From contig NC_090615.1 in NCBI RefSeq assembly GCF_004359215.1, positions 1,908,542 to 1,972,541 of the forward strand: a stretch of DNA of 64,000 bases, given 5' to 3'. Source of the stretch: Bremia lactucae (Eukaryota; Oomycota; Peronosporomycetes; Peronosporales; Peronosporaceae). The notes under the pieces are model-generated. The model did no database searches, was not told the origin of the DNA, and was given only the letters and a program-made list of their open reading frames with translations. Below are positions 1,081 through 64,000 of the stretch, piece after piece. The stretch's first letter is position 1. Each line of letters starts with the position of its first letter. Position numbers and translations under genes: made by a program.

Positions 1081-1120
1081 CAGTCGGGCGCTCCGCACCT
1101 ACTGATCCCGACCATTATTT
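1081..1120 (-). promoter_or_regulatory. Remnant gag-PR -1 frameshift signal (stem-loop plus slip site)
   Basis: Sense arms are CAGTAGG and CGGACTG-like (the plus strand reads CAGTCGG ... CCTACTG), one mismatch from perfect, with a 10-nt loop. The gag amber codon is in the 5' arm (CAG TAG). Nine nucleotides upstream is A-AAT-AAT, one base from the intact heptamer A-AAA-AAT at 12123-12129. Spacing and register match the intact copy. Confidence 0.6.
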
Positions 1121-4924: not shown

Positions 4925-5919
4925 ATGAGTAAGAACAAGAAACATGGCTGGAAGCGATGAAGAGCGAGGTGCAGTCACTAAATGAACACAGCACGTGGGC
5001 GCTAGTGGACATATCCACCGAACAAGAGGGTTTGTTGGCTGCGAGTGGGTATTTCGGATCAAGCGCGTTTTAAGTGGAGATATTGGCATGTTCAAGGCAC
5101 GATTAGTTGCGAAAGAATTTACGCAGCGACCTGGGATCGGCTTCGTCGAGACTTTTGCGCCAGTGACACGCAAAGAGTCAATCGATACGGTATTGGCAAT
5201 TGCAGCAGCTAAAGACTTGAAGACAAAAAATGTCAACGTTGATACCGCATTCTTGTATGGAGAAGCTGATGATGAAGTCTACATGGACCAATCCGACGGT
5301 TTTGAAGGTCAACAAAATTCGATGAAGACGTGTTTACTGCAGAAAGCGCTGTATAGAACCAAGCGGCCCGGTGCGGCAGTGGAATAGCAAACTAAATTAG
5401 CATCGTGAAAATCAAGGATTCAAAAGCACTTCAGCAGATCCGTGTGTTTATTCGAGTGTGTCAAGCGGCGAATACAGCATCATCGTTATTTACATGGATG
5501 GCCTAATGATGTTTGGTAAAACTAAGGAGCACATCACGGACATTAAGAGTGCGCTTAAGCACGAGTTCAGCATCAAGGAGCTTGGGGATCACAAGTACTG
5601 CTTGGGAATCGAGATTCACCGCAAGCGCGACGAACACTTAATCAAGATGAACCAGAAAGCATACAAAGGCGACTCGGAAAGGTTCGAAATCGAGAATTGC
5701 AAGGACGTGCACACACCAGCGGACAAAAATTCGAAACTAGTGAAGATGCCTGAAGAGGAAGCGTTTGAACCGAAATTTCCGTATCGCGAACTGGTGGGTG
5801 CATTAATATACATAGCGACTTGTACACGACCAGACATCGCGCATGCGGTTGGCGAAGTTGCCAAGTTCTGTGAGCGACGGGAATCACACTGGGTGGCGGC
5901 CAAGCGAATTTTCAAGTAA
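4925..5919 (+). pseudogene. C1 reverse transcriptase
   Basis: The N-terminal RVT_2 region reads KARLVAKEFTQRPGIGFVET FAPV, followed by VNVDTAFLYGEADDEVYM. After a shift near 5390 comes the catalytic region IVIYMDGLMMFGKT, where the second Asp of YxDD is Gly, so polymerisation should fail. Then ELGDHKYCLGIEIHR and FPYRELVGALIYIATCTRPD, the copia RT-RH connector. The stop at 5917 ends the frame. Confidence 0.85.
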
Positions 5920-6943: not shown

Positions 6944-7520
6944 TTGGATTCGCTAAATCAGCAAATGACTAGCATGTTTGCACCGCCTGATCAGGCTTTT
7001 CGCATGCGAGCACGGCTCCAATCGACTCGACAGGGTAAACGAACCCTAGCGGACTATGTCCAGAAGTTGAGAACTCTAATTGTATCGATGCATCAAGACT
7101 CGGTGCAAGAAACAATTGTCGTAACAATCTTTATGGGGAGTCTCAATAGGTCGTTGCCCGGACGGAATTATTCCCATCTCATCCTGCTACTTTCGAAGAG
7201 GCAGTTGCCATAGCGCTACGCACTGAGTTCGACTTTAAGTCTGCTCGTGAAAGCACGCCTGTTTTCCGAACAAGCTCTTCGAGCACATGAGTACCGCCTA
7301 ATAGACCGGAACCCATGGATCGAAGCCTCGTTGAGGAAGGAGAAAATGCTTTCAAGCTGTGGAACAGCGAAAGAAGGTCCGTAGATGCTATATGTGAGGA
7401 AGCACGAAACAATTACGTCCGGCCTGTCCCCTACGAAATACGCGTAAAGCTCGAAAGAGCACTAATTCCGGACTATACCAGAAATCTCGTACGGTACGGG
7501 AAAACGTCGATACCCAGTAG
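6944..7520 (+). pseudogene. G2 gag
   Basis: Retrotransposon gag core: MTSMFAPPDQAFRMRARLQS then RQGKRTLADYVQKLRTLI and VTIFMGSLNRSLPGR. After frame changes, EPMDRSLVEEGE at 7312 matches the EPMDLSYVES motif of the gag copies at 12.4 and 20.0 kb. A degraded CCHC knuckle begins with TGC at 7386; its second Cys codon is TGA. Its frame runs on to CAG TAG (7515-7520), the conserved amber end of gag in this family. There is at least one indel near 7380. Confidence 0.75.
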
Positions 7521-7538
7521 GTGCGGGGCGCCCTACTG
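7498..7538 (+). promoter_or_regulatory. Remnant gag-PR frameshift signal in G2
   Basis: Arms CAGTAGG (7515-7521) and CCTACTG (7532-7538) are a perfect 7-bp inverted repeat with a 10-nt loop. The gag amber codon is in the 5' arm. An A-rich GGGAAAAC ends exactly 9 nt upstream, the spacing of the intact heptamer at 12123-12129. The -1 frame across the stem reads VGAGRPT. Confidence 0.6.
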
Positions 7539-11388: not shown

Positions 11389-12107
11389 TTAATGCCTTAA
11401 ATGTCGCCCGCCAGACGTACATTCATGTCTCAATCCACTCGACTTCTTCGAGTGCTGGACCTTCGGCGCTGCCTGTCCATTAGCACAGCCACCAGCAGCT
11501 GACTCCACAGTGTGATTGGTAATCACACTGCAATCTTGTGCAGTTGTACTAACGACCGTACCACAAGTGAGGCCATCGCACTCACTCGTACACGCTTGTG
11601 GACGCTCCAAGACGTTCAGCAGATGGCCATCTGATAAACAAGTGGCAGGCATCTTTACGGATCGATGCTGCCAGCTGATCCTTGGCTCGTATTTTCTGAG
11701 CCAAGGTAAACCTAGGATGACATCAAATTTGTCATCCAAATCCGGTACGATGAAGTCACATCATCATACTGTAAATCCCTTAACGTGTAGTGAAATTTAC
11801 TACGCGTTTCATTACTATTATCGATGCGCCTGTCGCTAGACGACCGTCATCCTCGTTGGAGAGATGTCGGGCTCAACATATTTGAGCCTACAACCCTCTA
11901 GTGACTGGCGACGAATAAAGTTATTCGACGCTCCGCAGTCCACTAGAGCTCTGAGTGACAAATCATTTGTCACTTTCAACTTCAAGGTGATGAGGGATAC
12001 CTCATCACCAGGTGCAGAGACACATAATGATTGTGTGTCTGGAGCAACTTTTGTCAAGAGATTTGCAAATTCTCTTGAGGTTGCTGGATCAGTAGGGCGT
12101 TGCGCCC
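11389..12107 (-). pseudogene. G3 gypsy protease, read in the -1 frame of gag
   Basis: Minus strand. The frame is open from inside the gag-PR stem-loop: SVGAQRPTDPATSREFANLL, then TKVAPDTQSLCVSAPGDE, and the catalytic ALVDCGASNNFIRR. No ATG starts it. A second frame (11389-11739) continues with DDKFDVILGLPWLRKYEPR, the conserved protease C-terminus, and a linker. The Cys in DCGAS is shared with 759-1049. The domain stops at about 11389 against G2, so RT, RH and IN are missing. Confidence 0.8.
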
Positions 12108-12129
12108 CTACTGACCCCGACCATTTTTT
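12090..12129 (-). promoter_or_regulatory. Programmed -1 frameshift signal at gag-PR junction (best copy)
   Basis: Sense order: slippery heptamer A-AAA-AAT (plus-strand 12123-12129) in the gag frame, a 9-nt spacer, then a stem of CAGTAGGG and CCCTACTG (8 bp, 8-nt loop; plus-strand 12090-12113). Gag ends at the amber codon inside the 5' arm (TAG at 12108-12110). The protease frame is -1 relative to gag and is open through the stem. Copies of the stem are at 1081, 7515, 19910, 57979 and 62831. Confidence 0.75.
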
Positions 12130-13240
12130 GGCGGTCCGCCTCGCTGTTGCGATTTCGCAACAACGTCGGATCCGCGACCGTTGCCCTCTTTGGCATACGG
12201 TCCAAGATTACGTTCAGTACCTTTTGGTGCTGGACGTGGGGCACTACACTCATGAGCGTAGTGTCCTAATTTTTGGTAGCGGTGGCATTTCTGCAATCGC
12301 TTATTGCTCGAAAAGCGAGGTCTATCGCTTTCGACGTAAGAAAGGTCCATGGGTTCTGGACCTCCTAACTCGTGTCGTCTTGGAGGACGATATGATGACG
12401 AACTAGCTTGAGCCTGTCTCAAGCTAAAGTCCTCCTGTTCCGCAACGGATATTGCTTCTTCAAGCGTATCCAGTTCCAAGCGGAACAGGTGGGTCTTTAC
12501 GGGACCATCCGTAAGACCTTGCATGAACACCGTAATCAAAGTGTGTTCATGAACTGGGTTATTTGTTATACACTCGCTAAGAGTCTTATGTGCTGGGCAT
12601 TTGCGTGAACATCACGCTTGCCTTGATTGAGTTTCAGAAGCTCTGAACGAGCACTGAACTCAGCCCTTGGCGGTTCAAACGTCTGTTTGAGTCGTGCTTT
12701 AAAAGCCTCTAGCGACCCAAAGACGTATGCGTCGCGCAGTTGAAGGCCCAATGCCCAAGTTTTGGCACGACCTGCCAAATTTGATTGAGCGAATGCGACT
12801 TGCATTTGCTCGTCGACGATGTGACGTGTCCTTATGGCATCGTCCAACTCGACAAACCATCACAAGAGGGACTCTTCTTCGACTCCTCTATACTTAAAGA
12901 TGTCAATCTTTAAGGTCTCGGGACGACGCGTGTGCGTCATCCCAGGTACAGGGGTATGTACCTGTTATAACCTCAACTTCTGCCTGTTGAGAGCCTTGCT
13001 GATTAAGCAAGGCTACCTTCTCCTTCGCATCGTCAAGTTCATGTTGTATGAGCCTGGCGATGGCTGAATGGAGGGCATCTCTGTCCGAAATCGGACAGCA
13101 TGGCCAAGATGGCATCGTTCCCTACGCTCGAACTCATTCGTTCGACCGCACTCCTTTCTATGTCACTTAGAAAGGAGTAGCTATCACGCGAAACGTGATG
13201 CGTATTTCCATTATCATCTAACATGTCCATGTTAGATGAT
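12108..13240 (-). pseudogene. G3 gypsy gag
   Basis: Starts in the palindrome at 13213-13240 (M-D-M-L-D), continues with a helical, probably coiled-coil N-terminus (ARLIQHELDDAKEKVALLNQ). Then comes the capsid-like core SNLAGRAKTWALGLQLRDAY with FKARLKQTFEPPRAEFSARS and LLKLNQGKRDVHANAQHI. A one-base deletion at about 12571 relative to 20311 shifts the frame. The C-terminal part has GGPEPMDLSYVES and a damaged zinc knuckle CHRYQKLGHYAHEC (second Cys is Tyr). It ends GRGQ-amber. Bases 12405-12928 are nearly identical to 20141-20668. Confidence 0.85.
13213..13240 (-). promoter_or_regulatory. Gag-start palindrome, G3
   Basis: Arms ATCATCTAACATG and CATGTTAGATGAT are a perfect 13-bp inverted repeat with a 2-nt loop, about 30 nt from the primer-binding site. 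It holds the gag start codon. Related copies are at 2101-2124, 19540-19563 and about 20944-20970 (imperfect). Confidence 0.65.
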
Positions 13241-14192: not shown

Positions 14193-15041
14193 TTAGTTTG
14201 CTGGTGGGAAGGCCTCAATAAGCAGAGGTAGGAACTCAGCTGTTGCAATTTTGTACACGGGATGATTAACTACACCTAGAAGCGCAGCGGCAAATATGCT
14301 GTGGGAGACAACACCAACACTCTGTGATGACGTGTTCGAAAAGATAAAATTTAAGAACTTTGTTGCACGAATTTTTATCTCAGCGTCAGTCTCACGATGA
14401 TCAGAGGTCCACCATGGGTCCGCATCAGATTTAATTTTGCTGAAGTCCAAGTGAGGGTACTCGAGTCGCTTTTCAGAGATGCTGCGACGCTGGTCGCAAG
14501 TGCTCACACCCAGTATCTCCCGTGCTAACTCTACCACTGTGCTTTTGATGTTTTGTTGATTTTGGTACGCAACGGAGTAAGTATGAAGTGTACGCTCTAG
14601 CGGAGACACCAGCACATTGTCGAGATGTAAGCCCATAGAAATCTCACCGTCGAGCATTTTCGACGCTTTTCCTGCTTGTATGACCCCGGTTTTTGTCAAG
14701 GGCGAATCCAAATACTCTGGCAGCTTAGAGTAGTAGCCGTCCCACGCGAACATGCCATACTTGTTAGTAGCGACGTTGTGGATACCTTCACCATGACGCA
14801 GAAATACCAGAAGCTTCACATTTCTGCCTTCAAGTCGTCCCGCGGCAACTTCAGCATGCACATCATGCCACGTGTATCCATCCTGCAGCCCCATGTGAGG
14901 AGGGTAAGACGCTGGGGGAGACTGGCTAGGATCCCGTTGACTAAAATATTTAGGAATGTAGCGATACCGAGATGACGTAGGATGCTGGCCACTAGCTTTG
15001 CATATCACGAAAAGAAGCGCACCGAGGATTACCGCCAACAT
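14193..15041 (-). CDS. Secreted histidine-phosphatase / phosphoglycerate-mutase-like protein
   Basis: 282 residues, uninterrupted. Residues 1-18 (LAVILGALLFVICKASG core) are a signal peptide, so the product is probably secreted or enters the endomembrane system. The catalytic RHG motif is LRHGEGIHN at 81-89 (His83 the phospho-acceptor). A phosphate-binding Arg lies in SPLERTLHT (146-154). The REILGVSTCDQRR stretch (174-186) fits the plant and fungal PMU1-like subgroup, and the second His is in GVVSHS (243-248). All expected catalytic residues are present, and length is normal for a single-domain member plus leader. Enzymes of this clan remove or transfer phosphate through a phosphohistidine; the substrate cannot be told from sequence. 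A purine (A) is at -3 of the ATG. No intron is evident. It is the only intact non-transposon gene seen. Confidence 0.9.
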   Translation of the reverse strand: MLAVILGALLFVICKASGQHPTSSRYRYIPKYFSQRDPSQSPPASYPPHMGLQDGYTWHDVHAEVAAGRLEGRNVKLLVFLRHGEGIHNVATNKYGMFAWDGYYSKLPEYLDSPLTKTGVIQAGKASKMLDGEISMGLHLDNVLVSPLERTLHTYSVAYQNQQNIKSTVVELAREILGVSTCDQRRSISEKRLEYPHLDFSKIKSDADPWWTSDHRETDAEIKIRATKFLNFIFSNTSSQSVGVVSHSIFAAALLGVVNHPVYKIATAEFLPLLIEAFPPAN

Positions 15042-15080
15042 TTTAGCGTTACGAGTTAAGCGAGATCCGAGAGACTGACG

Positions 15081-15097
15081 GAAAATTCAGATGTGAG
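15081..15097 (-). promoter_or_regulatory. Possible oomycete initiator-like core promoter
   Basis: The minus strand reads CTCACATCTGAATTTTC about 40-56 nt before the phosphatase ATG. It loosely resembles the oomycete initiator plus flanking element (TCA-pyrimidine region then AWTTT). It is a partial match only, and no transcript data are available here. Confidence 0.3.
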
Positions 15098-15922: not shown

Positions 15923-16585
15923 CCCCAGCAAAATGGAATGGCTGAACGAATGAATAGGACACTGACGGAACGTGCAAGGTCGATGCTAAATCACATGCAA
16001 GTGGAAAAGAAGTGGTGGGCTGAAGCTATAAATACAGCTGTATATGTGACCAACCGGGTCACGTGCGCTTCATCCCCGACGAAGACTCCAATTGAGATGT
16101 GTTTTGGCTTGAAGCCAGACATGTCACACATGCGCGTTTTTGGTGCTCAAGGTTACGCACACATTGACAAAGCAAAACGTGCTTAATTGGACAAGAAGGC
16201 ATTTCGGTGCATGTTTCTTGGTTATTCACACGAAGTGAAGGGTTATCGTGTCTGGAATTATAATTCAGAAAAACTTGAAGTCACAAGGTCAGTGACATTT
16301 CAAGAACAGCCACGGACGAAGTATGTACAAGTTGTTGATGACGCACCAGTATCAACTCGTCAGCACGCAAAAATAAATGGCGAAGGAGACGATGATATCA
16401 GGGTTCAATCACCAATTTCTTCGAATCACGATGAAATTGAACCTATGGAGGTTGATCAGACTAACGGTGATCAAATAGTCTCGCCTCCTCAAGAATTAAC
16501 GTCGTTGGGTACACGTCTAGAGAATGGACATGAAGATGATATTGCTTTCGATATCGATGACGTGTACATGGAGCCAGCTAATTGA
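15923..16585 (+). pseudogene. C2 integrase C-terminal half
   Basis: Begins inside the last core motif, PQQNGMAERMNRTLTERAR, carrying the third acidic residue, then MLNHMQVEKKWWAEAINTAV and MRVFGAQGYAHI. A single TAA (16184-16186) precedes KKAFRCMFLGYSHEVKGYRV in the same frame, and an acidic linker follows. The first two catalytic Asp residues are deleted. Confidence 0.85.
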
Positions 16586-17678
16586 GGATGATATTCAGGC
16601 CATTGTGCCCAGGGAGGGATGGACTAATCTCGATGACAGTCTAGAGACACATTCATCTCGTGTTAGTGGACACAATAACCCTCTCGCAATATCTCCTCCA
16701 AGTACAGACTCACAAGCTTTGGTTCCGGTCGGGATGTCAGATGCTATTGTTTCGTCACGAGGAGATGAACCTGTAGAACGTGCCTCAAAACGATATCGTA
16801 TTGAATATGATCAAGCTAATGCGGCATTTGAAACCCCATCAACGTACCAAGATGCTGTGAAGTCTCCACAAAGTATGATGTGGAAAGAAGCGATAGAAGC
16901 CGAACTGAAGGCACTAGATAGCAAAAAGACGTGGAGTCCCGTGGACAATTTGTTAAACAAGAAGGTAATTGGAACTAAGTGGGTGTTCGCCATCAAGCGA
17001 AATGAAAATGGTGATGTTGAGCGATATAAGGCTCGGCTTGTGGCATTAGGTTATCGTCAGACCTATGGAATTGATTACTGGCAACATACCGCGAAACACA
17101 CGAATTGAATTCATGTTCGCAACCGGAGAATACGTGTCGTGATGGCTATATTCCAATATGATGTCGATACAGCATTTATCAATGGTGTTCTCGAAGAAGA
17201 GGTGTTTCTTAATACACCCGAGGGCGTTAAAATGAAATCGAGTCAAGTGCTGAAGCTAAATCGAAGCCTGTATGGACTTAAACAAGCTGCTGCAACATGG
17301 TTTAAGACTATTTCAGGCGTTTTCAAGAGCATGGGATTTGTGGCGTGCGTTTCGGATCCGTGTGTATTTGTTCGTCGATTTGACAATTTTTCATGGACTT
17401 ACGTGACGTTATATGTCGATGACATGCTCATTGGTGGCATTTCGTACGACTCAATTAAGCAAGTTGCTGATGAATTGTCTACTAAATTTCAGCTCAAGAG
17501 ACTGGGTAAAGTGCGATTTGTTCTGGGCATCGAAGTTGACTACAAGATGGAGGAGAAACGACTCAAGATCTGTCAAAGCGCGTGGATAGCAAGAATGGTT
17601 GAAAAATTCAATCAAGATAATGCTAGGCCGGTGTATAATCCGGGTATGGAAGACCAGAACATGATAAGTGTGAAGTGA
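16524..17678 (+). pseudogene. C2 reverse transcriptase
   Basis: After a frame change near 16580 the linker leads into WKEAIEAELKALDSKKTWSP, GTKWVFAIKRNENGDVERYK and ARLVALGYRQTYGIDYWQ. A damaged stretch with a stop at 17106 follows. Then FQYDVDTAFINGVLEEEVFL, LYGLKQAAATWF and the intact catalytic YVDDMLIGG (about 17409-17435). LKRLGKVRFVLGIEVD completes the palm and thumb. About two lesions separate it from function. Confidence 0.9.
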
Positions 17679-18585: not shown

Positions 18586-19056
18586 GGTATCACATGACAG
18601 TAAAACATTATACAAATCTACCCAGATTGAGCACCGTGCCTTCCTCAATTGTAGCCACTATCACTGCATAAAGCAAGGGCTAAGTTTAGCTTTCAACATA
18701 ATCTTTGATATGCGGGATAGTTCCTGACAATCCGCAAGTTTTTTAAGAAGTTCAGCAAACATTAAATTTGTTAGGATTTAGCCAGGGCACAAGCTTAAAG
18801 ACGAACATTGTGACATAATAAATTATGAAAATTGCTAAATTCACACCCTTTTTCGTTAAATTGACACCTTTTTTTATTTTGAGTTTGAAGTGCGAGGGAG
18901 GCGGCTGGGGCTAATTATAGCGTAATACGTTGTCTTAATGTATGCAGGAGTTATTGGTCGCATGATTATTCTTAAGGGTGACATGGGGGGTAACAACACC
19001 ATTGCTGAGGTAAAGTCGGATAGCCATCATACCAATACTAATCACTTTGCGCTTAC

Positions 19057-19496
19057 TGTAACGGGTGTATCGTTACATGAAATTAACACTTAAAGGTTGT
19101 TAATTAATATATAATCTAAGAGGTAGATAATATTTGGAGAATATTACTATACATGGTAATATTCTAAAGGCTTATCCAATGGTAGATATAGACCATTATA
19201 TCTACTTTCTTCGCGGTTCAGTCAGCGCTGGACGCGCGCAAAGAGAAAGACAGATAAGACTTTTAGTACATATTTTGTAAAAGTTTATAATTAAGTTAGT
19301 TTTAAGTAGGTAGACAAGAAGAACTTAATTATATTGATACAGTTTTTAATTAACCCTCTTTAAAGCAAGTGTTTTAAAGAAAAGACTTCTTCTGCACGTA
19401 CTAGTGTACGTGAAGTGACGTGAGGCACCACTCGCACTGAGGCAGTGCGAAGTGGACTTGTACTAGAGCAGTACAGGTCTGCAGTAGCCCGTTACA
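19057..19496 (+). repeat. Gypsy LTR, plus orientation
   Basis: 440 bp, begins TGTAACGGG and ends CCCGTTACA (9-bp perfect inverted ends). The first 21 bp are themselves a TGTAACG/CGTTACA palindrome. Followed by CC and the primer-binding site. Confidence 0.9.
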
Positions 19497-19498
19497 CC

Positions 19499-19506
19499 TG
19501 GTAGCA
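19499..19506 (+). promoter_or_regulatory. Primer-binding site, plus half of G4
   Basis: TGGTAGCA followed by C, two bases after the LTR. Complements the 3' end expected for initiator tRNA-Met. Confidence 0.7.
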
Positions 19507-19539
19507 CTTTGTAGTCCGTCCAAGGACCACAGTTCCAAT

Positions 19540-19807
19540 CATCTAACATGAACATGTTAGATGAAATGAAAATACGCATCACGTTTCGCGTGATAGCTAC
19601 TCCTTTCTAAGTGACATAGAAAGGAGTGCGGTCGAACGAATGAGTTCGAGCGTAGGGAACGATGCCATCTTGGCCATGCTGTCCGATTTCGGACAGAGAT
19701 GCCCTCCATTCAGCCATCGCCAAGTCCATACAACATGAACTTGACGAGGCGAAGGAGAAGGTAGCCTTGCTTAATCAGCAAGACTCTCAACACGCAGAAG
19801 TTGAGGT
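19540..19807 (+). pseudogene. Plus-strand gag N-terminus (G4 left half)
   Basis: Begins in the palindrome CATCTAACATG/CATGTTAGATG (19540-19563; loop AA, so M-N-M-L-D). Recovers gag homology in NDAILAMLSDFGQRCPPFSH and, in another frame, the LDEAKEKVALLNQQDSQHAE helix. Stops at the inverted junction near 19808. Too short and shifted to function. Confidence 0.7.
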
Positions 19808-19808
19808 T

Positions 19809-19949
19809 GATGAGGTATCCCTCATCACCTGGTGCAGAGGCACATAATGATTGTGTGTCTGGAGCAACTTTAGTCAAGGGATACACAAATTCTCTTGAGG
19901 TTGCTGGATCAGTAGGGCGTTGCGCCCCTACTGACCCCGACCGCTTTTT
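19809..19949 (-). pseudogene. Protease N-terminus with frameshift signal (G4 right half)
   Basis: The minus-strand -1 frame reads SVGAQRPTDPATSREFVYPL then TKVAPDTQSLCASAPGDE and stops at the junction. The stem CAGTAGGG/CCCTACTG is perfect (19910-19933). The slip site has decayed to A-AAA-AGC (19943-19949). Confidence 0.75.
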
Positions 19950-20961
19950 GGCGGTCCGCCTCGGTGTTGCGATTTCGCAACAACGTCGGACCCGCGACCG
20001 TTGCCCTTTTTGTCATTCGGTCCATAATGCAATCGCTTATTGTTCGAAAAACGAGGATTCTCGCTTTCAACATAAGAGAGGTCCATCGGTTCTGGACCTC
20101 CTAGCTCGTGTCGTCTTGGAGGACGATACGATGACGAAATAGCTTGAGCCTGTCTCAAGCTAAAGTCCTCCTGTTCCGCAACGGATATTGCTTCTTCAAG
20201 CGTATCCAGTTCCAAGCGGAACAGGTGGGTCTTTACGGGACCATCCGTAAGACCTTGCATGAACACCGTAATCAAAGTGTGTTCATGAACTGGGTTATTT
20301 GTTATACAACTCGCTAAGAGTCTTATGTGCTGGGCATTTGCGTGAACATCACGCTTGCCTTGATTGAGTTTCAGAAGCTCTGAACGAGCACTGAACTCAG
20401 CCCTTGGCGGTTCAAACGTCTGTTTGAGTCGTGCTTTAAAAGCCTCTAGCGACCCAAAGACGTATGCGTCGCGCAGTTGAAGGCCCAATGCCCAAGTTTT
20501 GGCACGACCTGCCAAATTTGATTGAGCGAATGCGACTTGCATTTGCTCGTCGACGATGTGACGTGTCCTTATGGCATCGTCCAACTCGACAAACCATCAC
20601 AAGAGGGACTCTTCTTCGACTCCTCTATACTTAAAGATGTCAATCTTTAAGGTCTCGGGACGACGCGTTTCCCACGTACAGAGGTCTGTACGTGTTGTAA
20701 CCTCAACAGTTCTGCCTGTTGAGATCGTTGCTGATTCAGCAAGGATACCTTTTCCTTCATCTCGTCAAGTTCATGTTGTATGAACTTCGCGATGGCTGAA
20801 TGGAGGGCATCCCTGTCCAAATTGGACAGCATTGCCAAGATTGCATCGTTTCCTCCGGTCGAACTCATTCGTTCGACCGCACTCGTTTCTATGTCACTTA
20901 GAGAGGAGTAGCTTTCACAGGAAACGTGATGCGTAGTCCCACCATCATCTAACATGTCCAT
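19928..20961 (-). pseudogene. G4 gypsy gag, longest intact gag frame
   Basis: The 218-codon frame 19928-20584 covers the whole capsid-like core (WALGLQLRDAYVFGSLEAFK, FEPPRAEFSARSELLKLNQ), LITVFMQGLTDGPVKTHLFR and GGPEPMDLSYVES, ending GRGQ-amber. About 33 residues with the zinc knuckle are missing between KRL and GNGRGSD compared with 12108-12539. The N-terminal part (20647-20961) starts M-D-M-L-D in the gag palindrome and has a helical IQHELDEMKEKVSLLNQQR; it is joined by a frame change near 20660. The LTR and primer-binding site (mutated TGGTAACA, 21000-21007) lie just upstream. Confidence 0.85.
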
Positions 20962-21009
20962 GTTTGAGGGGATTCGTGGTCCTTGGATGGACTACAAAGT
21001 GTTACCAGG

Positions 21010-21460
21010 TGTAACGGGGCACTACGACTTGTACTGCTTCAGTACAAGTCCACTTCGCACTGCTTCAGTTGCGAGTGGTGCCTTACGTTATTTCACGTAC
21101 ACTAGTACGTGCAGAGGAAGACTTCTTTCTAAGATAACTAGCTTAAAGAGGGTAAAATGAAAACTGTATTAATATAATTAAGTATCTCTTCTTCTGTCTG
21201 TTAACTCTAACTTAATTATAACAAATACTCAACATGCAACTAAAGTCTTATCTTATCTTATTTGTCTCTCTCTTTTGTTTATCTCTACAGCTGATTAGTC
21301 TGCGAAATAAATAGTTATAATGGTCTATACCAATTTATGAATAAGAATTCTGAACATTACTATATAAAGTAATATCTTCCAAATATTATCTACCTTTTAG
21401 ATAATATATCTATTAACAACCCTTAAGTGTTAATTTCATGTAGCGATACACCCCGTTACA
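21010..21460 (-). repeat. Gypsy LTR, minus orientation
   Basis: 451 bp, plus strand TGTAACGGGGC ... CCCCGTTACA. Full counterpart, inverted, of 19057-19496. Bases 21461-21853 to its right show no recognisable element or gene. Confidence 0.9.
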
Positions 21461-21853
21461 GGTACGACTTGGACTTGAATACTTGAAGCTTCTATACTTA
21501 GAATTTTTTTCCCAATGACTTTTCCCTGTAATCGAAGTGGCGAATTCGCGGTTAGTAAGTGGATGGTGAACATTCCTGTACGACTATAAATTAACTGCAT
21601 ATGCGAACAATTAGGTGATGATTGCCTATGTAAAGTATCTATATGAGTCTTGATTATATATCTTTGGCTCTGGATTCTTGGTTTGTGTTGTCTTGGTCAC
21701 TGGCTGGAGTCGTCATTCGTCTTGATGGATAAGTACTTGCGAATGCTCGCAAGGGCTGTTTGTTTCCTGATTTAAATTTGGGCAATTCACCTACATGCTT
21801 ACAAACTATATTCCTTCTATATATTAATATGACTCTTATACGTAAAAAGAGTA

Positions 21854-39104: not shown

Positions 39105-40240
39105 TGCTAAGAGCCCAACAACCGTGTATTATGTACATGACGTCTCGGCCAAGGTCCTGGTCGAAAAATTACACGGGTACAACTTCGCCATGGAGCCGCT
39201 ACATGCGTGACGTATTTCTGACCAAGTCAGCGAGGCATATTATCGGCCGTGGAGAAACTAACTCCAACATTCGTCGATGCGCGAGATTCCGACGAATATT
39301 TCCAGAAAAGCAACATCGCGTTTGGTCTAATACTCTTGCATAACCGACCTCAGTGGCCGAGTGGTTAAGCACTGGAACTGGGACCGGGAGGTACGTGGAT
39401 CGATACTCGCGGAGGGCGGTACGATGACACATCGCCGGAGATAGGCTAACAAGAAGACGAGCAACCATCCAATGGATGGCCGCCCTGCCAACCCGCACCG
39501 AAGGTGTGTGATAGTTGGGTGGGGGGAGGCCCTGTAGCCGAAATTCCCCATAGTGTAATGAGGGGTGCGGGGTTCCAATAAGAGAACTTCGTCAAAATTG
39601 AATCTCTAATACTCTTGCATATGGAGGCGGATAACCATCACGTGGTCGACGACTGCGAAGAAGCTTAGGTCGCATGGACGCGCATCAAGGCTGTATACGG
39701 TGGATCGCAGAAAGCGACTGCATCTAGCGCCAACTCTTCGGTATAGAGACGGCGGAAGGCGGAATCGTCTCGCATTGCTGCAATGAAGTTCTCAACACCA
39801 TCGCTAAGCTTAGCAGCATCGGCGCGAAGATGGAGGACGAAGAAGTTGCAATCTGCCTGCTGCGGAGTCTCTCGAAGAGTTACGAAAATGTCAACCTCAA
39901 TTCGGATATCAGCAATGCAGAACTACGGACGCAGGACGTAGTAAAAGTGCTGACTAATGAGCATATTAAGCGGCAGAGTGAACAATCTCAATTCATCAAG
40001 ACTGAAGCCCTTGTTATACCATTTGCTGCCGAGCATGAGTCACGACAAGGTGCATATTGCGGGAAAATGGAGCACTTGGTGGAGCGGTGCTGGACTAAGC
40101 AGAGTAACGAAAGTCGTAATGCTCGATGCGGCGGCCAAGCTCCTAAACGCGGAGCAAACAACGCCTGCTACCACGAAAATGACTATTACGAGTACGACCG
40201 CGATGCGTTTGCTGTTACACTGGATCATGGATAACTTAAA
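39104..40240 (+). pseudogene. C5a gag, split by a SINE
   Basis: The N-terminus is YMRDVFLTKSARHIIGRGE and a SNIAFGLILLH-like piece, interrupted at 39343-39604. After the SINE the gag continues with [40 protein letters not shown] and a knuckle-like [13 protein letters not shown]. The reading is open for 134 codons from 39830. Confidence 0.8.
39326..39621 (+). mobile_element. tRNA-derived SINE with 17-bp target duplication
   Basis: The body (39343-39604, 262 bp) starts ACCGACCTCAGTGGCCGAGT. The TGGCCGAGTGGTTAAGC stretch is a tRNA-Ser/Leu-type A box, and GGATCGATACTC is B-box-like about 38 bp later. It is flanked by the exact 17-bp repeat TCTAATACTCTTGCATA at 39326-39342 and 39605-39621. The host is copia gag, which is contiguous if the insert is ignored. 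Such long duplications are typical of LINE-mobilised elements. Confidence 0.9.
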
Positions 40241-44578: not shown

Positions 44579-45568
44579 CGTGCAAGTGACAATGCCGTTG
44601 AAGGATCGACCGAATTCAGAGCCGAAGTCCTTTCAAGAAGCGGCGAATGGACCGCAGCAATTTCACTGGCGCAAAGCAATTCGTATGGAGCTCGAGTCCA
44701 TGCGTCTTCGTGGTGTGTTTCGTGCTGCCAAGCTGCCAAATATGACTAACGTGCAATCGGTACCAATTAGTGTTTAAGGTCAAGCGCAGAGCGGGTGAGT
44801 CTATTGAGAATACAAGGCTCGCCTCGTGGCAAAGGGTTTCAAGCAGAATTACGGCATTGATACACTGAAACATTCTGGACGGTTATCAAGTACGTGATTT
44901 TGCGAATGGTGATCGCCATAAAGTACCGTACTTGTATTATTTTAATTGGCCTCTCGACCAGCGTAATGTGGCAATGCATTTTTGTATGGGATTATAAAGG
45001 AGCAAGTCTATTGCGAGGTCCCCGAAGGAGTCCAACTTGAGGATGGTTTTGATTGTTTCGAACTAGTCAAGGCCATCTACGGACTCAAGCAAGCGTCGCT
45101 TGTGGAATGATACGTTTGATGAGTTCATATGCTCTATTGGCTTCATGTATCAGCATTCGACCCGTGTCTATATCTCTAACGTTTGACAGACATTGCGTGC
45201 TTGTGCTGGTCTACGCGGACGATGGGCTGGTTACTAGACGCTCGCATAAATTGGTCCCACGTACCAATAAGGATCTCAAGACACGCTTCGAGATGACGGA
45301 CAGTGACAAGCGTGCATTCGACCTCTGCATCGAGCTGATCTTCAACCTATACGGCAGCTTGACGATGTGCCAACGCCGCTACGTGGGCGATTTTCCCAAA
45401 CGTTTTGGTATGAACGAAAGAAAAACTGCAGTCAGTCCGGTTGATATGAGCTCCCGGCTGCTTTCACCTGATGCATCAACCAAGGTGATTTCTTCATTTG
45501 CGAAGCTGTTTGTGATGAAGTGCACAGACTGCTTCGAAAATAAAGAGTTCACCTTGGTTGCTGCATGA
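44579..45568 (+). pseudogene. C5b reverse transcriptase
   Basis: AANGPQQFHWRKAIRMELES, MRLRGVFRAAKLPN and an [19 protein letters not shown] segment precede AIYGLKQASLVE near 45075. The catalytic VYADDGLVTRRS (45211-45246) retains both Asp residues. Then FEMTDSDKRAFDLCIELIFN, LTMCQRRYVGDFPKRFGMNE. Three frames. Confidence 0.8.
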
Positions 45569-48368: not shown

Positions 48369-48511
48369 TCTTCGTTGTGACAACGGCGGTGAATACACAT
48401 CTCGTGAAATGGACATGTTCTGCAAGCGCCGTGGTATTGATCAAAAGTTCACGCCAATCTACACTCCGCAACGGAATGCGGTAGTAGTGGAATGCGCACG
48501 ATGCATTCTTG
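48369..48511 (+). pseudogene. Inverted integrase chip
   Basis: An open plus-strand segment with LRCDNGGEYTSREMDMFCKR (second Asp) and RGIDQKFTPIYTPQRNAVVV ECAR. It lies against a minus-strand gag, so it is a short inverted piece of a different copia copy. Confidence 0.8.
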
Positions 48512-48514
48512 AGC

Positions 48515-48999
48515 GATTACTACGTCATCTTCGCTGACCGTACCATTCACTGCGTCGAGCTGCTCCGCCAACGTCTTGAGCCGAATAGTGTGCTCCAACC
48601 CTTCGTCGTCTTCCTCCATATTGGCCTTAAAGAAACGTCGACAAAGAAAGAGCTTATCAGCTAAGCTCTTCTTCTCGAAGTGCCCCTTTAATCTTGACCA
48701 TGCATCAAACGCTTCACTTGCCGACCGGACCAGGGGCAGCTGCGAATCCTTCATCGCGAGACAGATCATCGCCAATGCGTTACGAGACTTCCATTTGAAA
48801 GTCGAATGGTCCAATATATTCGTGCAGTGCTCAATTTTGATCTCCCCACTTCCCACAGGCGCCTCTCCTTCAGCACCATTCGCATCTTGAGCTTCAGGTG
48901 TGAAGTAATGTATCATCGAATTTATTGATTCGGTTTGGCGTAGAGGCGTCCATGCGACAGTCCTGGGTAGGGAAGGCAGAGTCAGCGGGGTTGGGCTCA
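48515..48999 (-). pseudogene. M-C gag, best copia gag
   Basis: One frame from about 48870 reads IKIEHCTNILDHSTFKWKSR, NALAMICLAMKDSQLPLVRS, AFDAWSRLKGHFEKKSLADK, LFLCRRFFKANMEEDDEGLE and TIRLKTLAEQLDAV. These are the UBN2 core landmarks. The start region has a frame change, and the frame runs into unrelated sequence at 48511. Confidence 0.85.
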
Positions 49000-49004
49000 T
49001 AACC
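48990..49004 (-). promoter_or_regulatory. Primer-binding site of M-C
   Basis: Sense GGTTATGAGCCCAAC, identical to 30837-30851 on the other strand. The LTR end (CTGACA in sense) adjoins. Confidence 0.75.
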
Positions 49005-49162
49005 TGTCAGAAAAAGTCGTTTGAGTGCTAGATGACAAAATGCAAATGTTGAAGGTTTTTAGTTCGCAAACAATTTGCTACCTTTAAGCCTACAGGATAC
49101 TTTACTGGATTTATTAGCTGGCTATGTCCATTCTAGCCATCCGCTTCTACTACGTAGAAATC

Positions 49163-49742: not shown

Positions 49743-50423
49743 TCACTTGGCTGCGGCGCTGAATTCCATCGCCGACTTGAACGTGGTCGGCATTTGTCTC
49801 ATCGAATTTACAACGTAGGCAGTTTCAAAATCTTGTGCCGTTGCAGACAATTCTTCCATCGATTGGTATTGACAGTGTCGCTTAGGCGTTGGCATTCGGC
49901 CTCTTTTTCGAGCGATGGAGTCCGCTGGTGCCGCTTGCTGCCAGGCTCCGTTTCTTGCTCCGCTCACATTCTTCATTCTTGTGACCAGTTTCTTTGAGAT
50001 GTGGAGAGCCAATTCATCAGCAACTAGAACGACAATCTCGATATGATGGCGGACGCATCTCCCACTGTCAAACATGTCTTCCATAAATTTTGCCATTCGA
50101 CTCACTAGTATACGGCCACTCTCAATCTCTTGGAAACGGTATGCTTTTTCATGTTCAGAGTAGCCGAGAAACCGACAGCGTACCGATCGAGAGTCAAGCT
50201 TGCGACACTTTCCCTTTGGAACTGTCACAAATGTATGGCAGCCAAACACCTTTAGATTCGCCAGCAGTGGTTTCTTCCCGATCCAAACCTGATATGGTGA
50301 CTTTTCCATACCAATTCCTCGCGTTGGACAGCGATTGCGAAGAAAGGTAGCGGTCATGACAGCTTCATCCCAATACGTTCTTAGCAATCCAGCGTGCTTA
50401 GGCATGCATCGTGCGCATTTCAT
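49743..50423 (-). pseudogene. M-D integrase C-terminus and linker, 226 codons
   Basis: ARCMPKHAGLLRTYWDEAVM, TATFLRNRCPTRGIG, LANLKVFGCHTFVTVPKGKC and RFLGYSEHEKAYRFQEIESG run in one uninterrupted frame, then into the RT-proximal ATAQDFETAYVVNSMRQMP. The longest pol frame in the window. The second-Asp region upstream (SLQCDNGGEYTSGE-like) is in another frame. Confidence 0.85.
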
Positions 50424-51425
50424 TAGAGTGCGATTTATTCTTTTTAGCCACCCCGTTCAGTTTCAGAGTGTAGGGTGGCGTGAACTTTTGCTCAATATCA
50501 TAATTTGACCATTTCACCCGATGTGTATTCGCCACCATTGTCACATTGAAGAGCTTTGACAGCTTTGCCGGTGTGAATTTCAGCAAGCGCAACAAACTTG
50601 GCGAATTTCTCTGATACCTCTGACATGCTTCCTAGCAACGACACTGTAATAAAGTGCCAGTTACTATCGGTGAAGGTGACAAAGTACCGCTAACCGCTCA
50701 TCACGACGAGCTTGCCACATTGGCTTCGTCAGTGCCAACGGGCGTCATGCATAACTTAAACAGCCCTTTACCCTCACGGGATCCAAGCTTCCACTGCAAT
50801 CGTGTTCCTTTTTAGCAAAGCATCCGTCGCTTTCTAAAGTGACCGGACCCACGCAGTAGTAAAGCGTACAACGGATTAGAGGTTGCGCGATAACTTCGGA
50901 ATATGCGAAACTACTCGTGGCGCCCTCTTCTTAGTTCCACATGGAGCATTCATGCACATTACAATGTCACCAGTCCCGATCGCCTGGGCGACACTGTCGT
51001 CTGCTAAGTGAACATCCACCGGAGAAATATCCTTGTAAATTTTCATCAACGTTTTCGAGTACGTCGTGTGCTACGTTGCACCCTAGTCGACCAGCCACAA
51101 GCAACTTTGCTAGTCTTGAAATGTCCACGTACCGAAAAAAGATATTCGTCAGAGTCCTCCTCACTGTGGCAGCTGCCGCTCTGGGGACTTGGTGATTCAA
51201 TGCCTATACTTCCCACAGTAGTGACAGGCACTGCTGGCCTTGACCATTGCTTGGGTCCATTACGCCGTTCGTCGCCCGTTGTCATAAACACTTGTCCTTG
51301 CCCGTGCGCGGTTCCATCTAATGTAAAGATCAAGTGAGCACTAGTTGTCAAAATGCAAAGTGAACATATTATGGTTCTTAGTTCTTAATCTGGGTTACCT
51401 CTAATCCAATCATTACCTAGAAAGC

Positions 51426-57379: not shown

Positions 57380-58110
57380 TCACGACCCATTAGTTTTTGG
57401 GTCGTATGAGTTTTTTAAGACCCGGCTAAGGCAAACATTGAGCCGTTACAAGCCGACTTCAGGACTCGAGCAGAGCTCCTGGATTTGAGGCAGGGCAAGC
57501 GTGACCTTTACGCTTATGTCCAACATACACGATACGTAGTCAGTTTTATCGTGAGTCATCCGATTGATTAACATACACTGTGTTCATTAAGGGTCTCGCA
57601 GACGGTCCTGTCAAGACCCACCTGTTCCGGATCGAATTAGAGCGATATACGAAGCGATCTATCTAGCGGAACAAGTTGACTTCAGCTTTTAAAAGGCTTT
57701 CGTCCACTCGGGTGCTTATCGTCCACCGAGACGACAAGAAAACGGAGGTCCAGAACCATGGAACTCTCGTATATATAGAGCGAGAACCCTCGCTCTTCAA
57801 GTTACAAACGTTACCAAAATACAATCGTGTCAAAAGACGGACCACTTCGTGCCCCACGGCCAGTGCCTAGAAACACTGTGCGAAATGAGCGACCTTCCAC
57901 TAGGAACAGCGGAGGACGCGGATCCGAAGCTGTTGCGAAATTGCAACAGCAAACCGGATCGTCAAATGCGGTCGGGGTCAGTAGGTGCGGAGAGCCCTAC
58001 TGATCCAGCAACGTCAAAAGAATTTGTAGGCTTTTTTGACGAAAGTTGCTCCTCGCACACAAACGTAGTGTATAACTGCCCCAGAGGATGAGGTTAACCT
58101 CATCAGACTG
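57380..58110 (+). pseudogene. Gypsy gag C-terminus and protease start, plus strand
   Basis: YEFFKTRLRQTLSRYKPTS and a LRQGKRDLYAYVQHTRYVVS-like gag core, then TMELSYI and SENPRSSSYKRYQN in shifting frames, the usual C-terminal gag. It passes the stem-loop at 57979-58002, where the -1 frame reads VGAESPTDPATSKEF. Protease is cut off near 58110. Opposite in strand to the adjacent RT, so an inverted joint lies at about 57360. Confidence 0.7.
57960..58002 (+). promoter_or_regulatory. Remnant gag-PR frameshift signal
   Basis: Arms CAGTAGG (57979-57985) and CCTACTG (57996-58002), 10-nt loop, amber codon in the 5' arm. The slip site is eroded to TCAAATGC at the same distance upstream. Confidence 0.55.
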
Positions 58111-62830: not shown

Positions 62831-64000
62831 GCGTAGGGGCGGGATGCCCTACTGACGCGGGCTTTGAAGCTATCCCTAAGTTCAGAGTTATCGAACAAAT
62901 GAATAGGATAGTCCCTGAGGTCTCGATATTCGGACCTCAACCCTGCTGGTCTATAGCGCTCGAGTACGAAGCTATGACGATGTGATGACCTTCTTTTGGG
63001 TTCGGGTGCATCACAGAATTTTGTGAAACTCGCGGCTCTAAAGCAGAGACCGGCGATGGTTGAGTCGCTTTGCAAGAATGGCAAGTGAGAAGAGGCAACC
63101 GCTCGTTTAGCGAACGGCACGCTCGTAAAGTCTGAGAGAGTTCAAGGTGAACTCGCCTTCAATATTACTGAATTCTTCTGTTGAGAGAAAAACCTAGTGC
63201 TAGGTATAAAGAGTCCGTATGACCTCATCCTTGGCATGCCATGGTTGGCAAGATACCAACAATGGATAGACTGACGTACGTACAGTTGCTCTCTAAGCGA
63301 ACGCCAAAAAGGATGTGTTCCTGCAAGAGGCGTATGCAGTTGATGTCGTGTCAGACACAGTCGAGGGTGCGTTGACGGGTTGACAAGCGTCACCAAGTCC
63401 TACCCAGCTCGTAGAGACTGGGGTAGTGAAAAGGACGATGACAAGTAGTCATGCGTCCAATAGTCCTGCACAGAGCCGAGAGCCTGTGGCAGTAGACAGC
63501 GAGCTGACAAAACGTCAGGCGTCACAAGAACCGGCACAGAGCCTAGAGCCTTGTGCGGTTGAAAACGGTGCGTTAGCCGAGAGAGCAATGGCACCCGCTT
63601 CCCGGTCAAAGGTCGTGATGACTCGAAAAACGAGTACCTGGCAAAAAAAGACGATCAAAGGCACGGTCAAAACGAGTGACCTTTGGATCGGCCCTGACGA
63701 AGGAGGACAAGCCTTCGAACAAGGTATTCGAGGCCGCCGAAGGCGAAATAGCGGAAGCATCCTCTGTTGAGGTGCTCCAGCACGTCTTGAAGTCTTCGAG
63801 GAGATAGTAAAAATCCCGGGGATAGCGTGGGATCTATTCCTGTCCGAACTTAAGGAAGGAAAGATCCACGAAGTAGTCGCACCAGTTGCAGAAAATAACT
63901 TGGTAAACTAGAGCTCGTCTTCCACAATGGACGAGAGCGTCCTAGAAACGAACAAAAAGAAACGATTCGCTGCTCAAGGCTGGGATGCCTTGAAAGACAG
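62831..64000 (+). pseudogene. Gypsy gag-PR junction, protease and PR-RT linker, runs off window
   Basis: The gag-PR stem (GTAGGG 62833-62838, CCCTAC 62847-62852) starts it, with -1 frame SVGAGCPTDAGFEAIPKF. The protease reads LLLGSGASQNFVKLAAL (catalytic Asp replaced by Gly at 62999) and ends SPYDLILGMPWLARYQQWID. A linker with repeated AQSREPV/AQSLEPC follows, then FLSELKEGKIHEVVAPVAEN, SSSSTMDESVLETNKKKRFA and AQGWDALKD, the segment just upstream of RT in this family. Confidence 0.85.

Follow-up and report, generated by a model that had tools for sequence, protein, structure and literature searches.

The -1 frameshift signals of retroviruses, such as HIV-1 gag-pol and HTLV-II gag-pro, are described as an X_XXY_YYZ heptamer, a spacer of 5-9 nt and a simple stem-loop (PMC7618472). 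Among animal LTR retrotransposons, a survey cited in PMC5009743 placed pol in the -1 frame in 28 of 51 elements. The same source describes a conserved 27-nt stem (11 bp, 4-nt loop) at the junction of the plant Sirevirus elements, with pol in +1 or overlapping, and a slip site G_GAU_UUU followed 3 nt downstream by an amber codon in pea enation mosaic virus (PMC5009743). For the oomycete Bremia lactucae, the reported assembly spans 115 Mb, of which 24 Mb are gaps, and Gypsy elements occupy 53.3 Mb of the 91 Mb sequenced (PMC6570648).

In a 64,000-nt stretch of B. lactucae DNA (hereafter the window) we analysed a cassette that we read, with a probability of roughly 0.88, as the gag-to-protease -1 frameshift signal of several oomycete Ty3/gypsy families. 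An earlier note on the window had proposed a -1 frameshift at this place, and the comparisons below support that interpretation. The heptamer AAAAAAT, the 9-nt spacer and the stem follow one another at 12090-12129 exactly as described there; the position stood and the strand was corrected to minus, the element being oriented from high to low coordinates. The parts of the cassette are:

12123..12129, minus strand: slippery heptamer A_AAA_AAT (AAAAAAT) in the gag frame, family F1, by sequence reading
12114..12122, minus strand: 9-nt spacer GGTCGGGGT, its last four bases able to pair with 12086-12089
12090..12113, minus strand: 24-nt stem-loop CAGTAGGG-GCGCAACG-CCCTACTG, by pattern search and predicted fold, either 7 bp, a bulged G, 3 bp and the triloop CAA, or 8 bp and an 8-nt loop
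12108..12110, minus strand: gag amber stop codon TAG within the 5' arm
12108..12611, minus strand: 3' part of the gag frame including the stop, a piece itself without a Pfam match
11839..12129, minus strand: -1 frame starting at the heptamer, protease N-terminal region, with TAG after 97 codons
12086..12089, minus strand: ATCC, a possible 4-bp stem extension with the spacer bases GGGT (predicted fold)

As the earlier note had claimed, the gag frame ends at the amber codon 12110-12108 in the 5' arm and the -1 frame is open across the stem. We find it open for 97 codons from the heptamer. An open reading frame related to this gag piece, at 19931-20596, gave a Retrotrans_gag match (Pfam, E 1.3e-12), and the protease of the 12090 copy gave Pfam E-values of 0.004 and 0.018, both below the cut-off. 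The -1 frame stretch carries VDCGASNNF, which we take to be a protease-like motif, its residues having been read in locus L015.

The anatomy and phase of the cassette match two-tRNA -1 slippage as in retroviruses. For the majority of ribosomes, translation of gag would end at the amber codon within the stem, and the product would be Gag alone. The others, a minority, would be held up by the stem while the heptamer occupies the P and A sites, move one base back, pass the amber codon out of frame and continue into protease-pol, yielding Gag-Pro-Pol. What the analysis establishes is how the parts are ordered, phased and spaced, how they read, that they recur in four distinct families, that paired synonymous sites are conserved and which fold is predicted; the slippage itself, its rate and its stimulation by the stem are inferred.

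With up to three mismatches allowed, the stem pattern was found at six places in the window, compared with a mean of 0.09 and a maximum of 2 in 100 shuffles. The five places other than 12090 are:

19910..19949, minus strand: second F1 copy, AAAAAGC, spacer and stem as at 12090
1081..1120, minus strand: F3 copy, AAATAAT, stem with two mismatches
57963..58002, plus strand: F3 copy (57979), decayed heptamer CAAATGC, T at stem position 8
7499..7538, plus strand: F4 copy (7515), GGAAAAC, spacer GTCGATACC, stem
62831..62854, plus strand: F2-like remnant, 5' arm without CAG, slip heptamer absent at the expected place

These five stems had been reported before as copies of one element with the arms kept. 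The stems themselves were recovered, and by their sequence the six copies are assigned to three Ty3/gypsy groups, F1/F3 (12090, 19910, 1081 and 57979), F4 (7515) and F2 (62831). At 62831, which is F2-like downstream, the arms are not retained: other bases stand where the 5' arm should have CAG, and CAGTCGC occupies the place of the heptamer. Self-BLAST of the window linked 12090, 19910, 1081 and 57979, with 67-78% identity between F1 (12090, 19910) and F3 (1081, 57979) over the aligned stretches around the junction; F3 has the F1 pattern in common, but with T at stem position 8. A VGAxxPT-like peptide is encoded in the -1 frame of all six copies, and the slip site has decayed to AAATAAT at 1081 and AAAAAGC at 19910, both of which had been noticed earlier, and to CAAATGC at 57979.

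Several other features of the window were recorded. The F1 copy at 19054-21461 has an inverted duplicate: 19054-19808 is the reverse of 13749-12969 (87%), and 20699-21461 the reverse of 19808-19056 (81%, self-BLAST). A 297-aa open frame at 14196-15086 on the minus strand matches the histidine phosphatase superfamily (PF00300, E 1.3e-10) and is likely a host gene amid retrotransposon remnants. Copia-type remnants, with matches to RVT_2, Retrotran_gag_2 and a retroviral SH3-like domain, lie on the plus strand at 5401-5916, 16521-17675, 39728-40231 and 45053-45565 (the RVT_2 match of the last being below the Pfam cut-off), and on the minus strand at 48452-49006 and 49746-50456.

The whole genome (115.9 Mb, 220 contigs) was then searched. 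An exact AAAY-N9-stem pattern gave 1,440 matches against 0 for the reversed control, and 0 in the viral contig collection and the prokaryotic genome collection, from which records of this genome or its close relatives may be missing; a related-locus search of the viral contig collection likewise yielded no confirmed relatives. The pattern with a loop one base shorter matched 35 times, in copies with one base deleted. The exact-arm palindrome alone, which counts alike on both strands, occurs 1,200 times. For F1 and F2 we used anchors leaving heptamer and stem free, and obtained 620+604 places for F1 (at most 3 mismatches; reversed control 8+5) and 563+559 for F2 (reversed control 0). The F4 search, GGAAAAY-N9-CAGTAGG, gave 226+254 exact matches and none in the control; eleven places among the matches listed were F2 variants, and 20 regions were read. 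F5 is represented by the single locus L113, with a relative, L114, both met among the AAAY-N9-stem matches listed. Eight further gag matches examined for other families all proved to be F2.

Four families, F1, F2, F4 and F5, have a common layout: a heptamer, 9 nt, and CAGTAGG-N-GC. The gag frame reads CAG TAG there, and the -1 frame encodes VGAxxPT. The heptamers are A_AAA_AAC/T in F1, G_GGA_AAT in F2, G_GAA_AAC in F4 and A_AAA_AAC in F5. These families, in which a heptamer stands 9 nt ahead of one and the same stem, have unlike Gag tails and proteases, and identity in the protease region, stem peptide excluded, is 26-31%. Among the first 100 F1 places listed, all with exact anchors, we counted 64 AAAAAAC, 13 AAAAAAT, 1 AAAAAAA and 22 others; the corresponding 100 F2 places had 73 GGGAAAT, 1 GGGAAAC and 26 others. 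The heptamer, whose conservation the earlier note had proposed to check, therefore fits X_XXY_YYZ in 78/100 F1 and 74/100 F2 of these first places, collected without regard to it, counts that are not independent trials because the copies are related by descent. F5 fits in L113. The F4 heptamer is not a strict X_XXY_YYZ and would, by our own reasoning, require the middle position of the P-site codon to form a G-U contact. The AAAAAAT of the window is not a private mutation, since it is also found in L076, L081, L083 and L071 (spacer GGACGGGGT).

Places chosen by the stem led to the same junctions. Of the 23 distinct stem-chosen places read on contig C1, 13 proved to be gag-protease junctions of F1 and 10 of F2, and a canonical heptamer is retained at 9 nt in 14 of them. 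When loci were picked by anchors that leave the stem free, 13/30 F1 and 16/30 F2 had two exact arms; at stem positions 4-6, TAG stands in 22/30 F1 and 26/30 F2 anchored loci, with TAA in two more F2. Most copies read are decayed, and loss of the stem in dead copies is as expected. Two F4 loci, L104 and L106, carry three tandem copies of a 27-nt slip-site unit in the gag frame, which there reads VRENVDTQK, VRENVDTQK and VRENVDTQ before the stop. Of 4735 PF03732 candidates in the genome 150 were scored, and most of these have an identical score of 61.3 bits, which suggests a recent burst of F2.

That coding constraint might preserve the arms was rightly raised in the earlier note. The arms could be kept only for VGAxxPT in the -1 frame and for the gag Q-stop, with the hairpin idle and any slippage due to the heptamer alone. 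Such an explanation would fit the presence of the peptide in each of the six window copies and some Phytophthora proteins, the conserved Gag ends and the weak F4 and F5 folds. It survives best among the rivals; we nevertheless regard it as improbable, and the evidence against it comes from synonymous sites compared between families. Past the gag stop, stem positions 8, 11, 14, 17, 20 and 23 each hold the third base of a -1 frame codon. In a bulged model of 7 bp, a bulge at position 8 and a triloop closed by pairing of 9-11 with 15-17, position 14 lies in the loop and positions 11, 17, 20 and 23 are paired. Among fourfold codons for the same residue, in the six pairs of F1, F2, F4 and F5, the third base agrees in 31/37 cases within the stem vs. 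just 22/83 outside it. All six disagreements in the stem fall at the unpaired positions 8 or 14, and the paired positions 11, 17, 20 and 23, which coding leaves free, do not vary among the four families. Position 24 is G throughout, despite changes of its residue (D, D, G, G, V). In the relative F5b position 11 differs (GCT) and that stem pair is lost. A crude hand estimate puts the chance of such conservation at ~1e-7, taking the outside match rate of 0.27, four sites and three independent comparisons, and assuming independent sites and a star-shaped family tree. Each free core base faces a base fixed by the code or by the amber codon, so that classical covariation is hardly possible in the core. 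The bases flanking the stem differ between families, and recombination would therefore need to copy a tract of ~24 nt. The conservation of the stem is predicted by pairing and not by coding alone; the comparison between families favours a structural role.

Predicted folds differed between families. The 45-nt F1 piece has a minimum of -23.1 kcal/mol with 12 bp and an 8-nt loop (z -4.6; 0/200 shuffles as good), and its bulged triloop form is the centroid at -23.0 kcal/mol. For F2 the minimum is likewise the 8-nt loop (z -3.5), and for F4 and F5 it is the bulged form, close to shuffles (z -1.3 with 17/200, and z -1.7 with 11/200 as good, respectively). Pieces of 80-81 nt gave z of -5.6 for F1, -2.2 for F2 and -1.3 for F4. 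The 8-bp stem proposed earlier was accordingly recovered as the minimum-energy form in F1 and F2, but the fold common to the families is the one with position 8 bulged and 9-11 paired with 15-17: its pairs are possible in 10/10 cases in F1-F5 and 9/10 in F5b, vs. 8, 8, 7, 7, 7 and 7 of 8 for the plain model in F1, F2, F3, F4, F5 and F5b. In F1 the lower extension GGGT/ATCC would add four pairs reaching into the spacer, which measures 9 nt to the core stem and 5 nt if the extension forms. Pairing of the spacer with bases past the stem amounts to 4, 3 with a bulge, 4, 2, 1 and 0 pairs in F1, F2, F3, F4, F5 and F5b; we do not claim these differences as covariation because the families are too few.

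A second rival is that the 24-nt near-palindrome is kept, perhaps additionally, for packaging or dimerisation of the element RNA or as a protein-binding site in RNA or DNA, its position at the junction being incidental. The core is constant in F1-F5 in its sequence, beyond pairing, as this would predict. Against it stand the constant 9-nt spacing and the phase to heptamers of unlike sequence, and the constancy of the core needs no further reason, given that its free bases face fixed ones. We consider this explanation very unlikely as a replacement for the frameshift reading; a second role would be compatible with it.

The frames were followed on both sides of the junction. Gag and protease in one frame, the arrangement that would contradict a frameshift signal, was not found in the copies with the longest gag openings upstream, L045 (389 codons), L076 (379) and L036/L001 (one place, 370): in L045, L076 and L036 gag stops at the amber codon within the stem and the protease is in the -1 frame. 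The longest -1 openings run up to an N run (L040, 357 codons; L015, 331; L083, 305). None of the copies read has gag and pol open in full, because pol enters N; the N runs may be assembly gaps. In 7/10 F2 places chosen by the stem alone, a TGA lying two codons ahead of the heptamer closes the -1 frame, so that ribosomes could enter the protease frame only within the ~28 nt holding the heptamer. This TGA lies inside the F2 search anchor and was counted only on the 10 stem-chosen places.

Retrotrans_gag was matched in L036 (E 8.4e-16) and L076 (E 1.1e-14), a CCHC pattern is present in the relatives P0001 and P0002, and the -1 frame of the F2 locus L004 gave an RVP_2 match above the cut-off (E 5.8e-5). 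The 101-codon protease piece of L090 had no Pfam match, and a PDB search with the protease piece gave 0 matches. With Retrotrans_gag and a CCHC knuckle, and a predicted retroviral-type aspartic protease after gag, the elements are classed as Ty3/gypsy (Metaviridae).

Relatives in other species were compared at the protein level. The nearest named Gag relatives among the matches listed are from the downy mildews Peronospora effusa, Peronospora farinosa, Peronospora matthiolae and Hyaloperonospora, followed by Globisporangium and Phytophthora. The 177 relatives listed comprise 57/57 matches and the best 120 of 213. A full-tailed set of 110, with the CCHC motif starting 43-75 residues from the end, was retained; 55 that lack the CCHC pattern were set aside, as were 8 whose tails are shorter and 4 whose tails are longer. 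The C-terminus is N-x-x-x-Q in 101/110 full-tailed relatives listed (KN 66, GN 30, EN 3, LN 1, TN 1), many of which are near relatives of one another; one of the nine others, P0028, ends GKGQAQ. Lys-Asn, Gly-Asn and Leu-Asn could be encoded by A_AAA_AAY, G_GGA_AAY and U_UUA_AAY, the heptamers of other species being deduced here from protein. TTTAAAY-N9-CAGTAGG occurs at 0 places in the B. lactucae genome, so that the U_UUA_AAY class is a guess from the protein end LN (P0018). An alignment of 25 Gag proteins shows no variation at this N and Q; its members were picked mostly for intact ends, and it is hence not an independent test.

On the protease side, Phytophthora fragariaefolia and Phytophthora palmivora likewise have protease-bearing proteins with VGAGRPT; most of the 119 further matches listed do not extend to the VGAxxPT region or are without the peptide. 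One predicted protein of Phytophthora rubi, P0212, holds gag and protease domains together without VGAxxPT, and the arrangement may therefore not be general in oomycetes. In the predicted proteins P0227, P0232 and P0238 (Phytophthora fragariaefolia) and P0158 (Peronospora matthiolae), residues of the gag side lead directly into the VGA peptide, which looks as though the frame change had been bridged by gene prediction.

Such bridging proteins, together with the six-A run in F1 and F5, could also be accounted for if splicing, or slippage of the polymerase on the A-run, gave access to the -1 frame. GGGAAAT in F2 and GGAAAAC in F4 offer no such six-A run at that place, and we give these routes little credence, about as little as the other roles of the palindrome. 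The idea that the frame change is decay of old copies, with live elements having gag and pol in one frame, can be practically dismissed: most copies read are broken, but the same arrangement recurs in four families and, judged by Gag ends, in relatives elsewhere, the longest-open gag copies carry it, and one score is common to most of the 150 scored gag matches, as after a recent burst.

Ribosomal -1 frameshifting is a known mechanism; what is unusual here is the constancy of the stem while it is paired with different slip sites. As a speculative and rather unlikely extension of the frameshift reading, the cassette could be an RNA module of old standing in oomycete Ty3/gypsy elements, with an exchangeable heptamer, and with spacer, amber codon and stem fixed because the stem is read sequence-specifically and does not act only as a roadblock, e.g., by the Gag nucleocapsid as a feedback on the Gag:Pol ratio. 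The exchangeable heptamers would be A_AAA_AAY, G_GGA_AAY and G_GAA_AAC and, from the Gag ends LN and GK, possibly U_UUA_AAY and G_GGA_AAA.

No earlier description of such a signal in oomycete retroelements was found in titles and abstract openings among the matches listed, a search mostly outside the subscription literature. If confirmed, the cassette would be the frameshift signal of a dominant oomycete element group and would account for the gene models that bridge the junction. One stem joined to different slip sites also forms a natural series, useful for separating the contributions of stem and heptamer.

Compared with the systems described, the cassette is like the short conserved stem that Sirevirus elements have at the gag-pol junction (PMC5009743), but it differs from this plant Ty1/copia group in a protease in the -1 frame, a Ty3-type gag, and 10 bp with a bulge and a 3-nt loop. 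A G_GAx start such as that of F4 G_GAA_AAC has a precedent in pea enation mosaic virus, a plant RNA virus with another heptamer and other spacing (PMC5009743). With animal LTR elements the families share the Ty3/gypsy type and classical heptamers at the gag-pol junction; the hosts are different, and a shared constant stem is not among the features that the part of PMC5009743 on animal elements describes. The likeness to retroviral signals extends to the X_XXY_YYZ heptamer, the 5-9 nt spacer and, as predicted here, a simple stem-loop, and the lower stem of HIV-1 also uses spacer bases, as the F1 GGGT/ATCC extension would (PMC7618472). Unlike in retroviral signals, the gag amber codon here lies inside the 5' arm, the stem is constant across element families, and the host is an oomycete.
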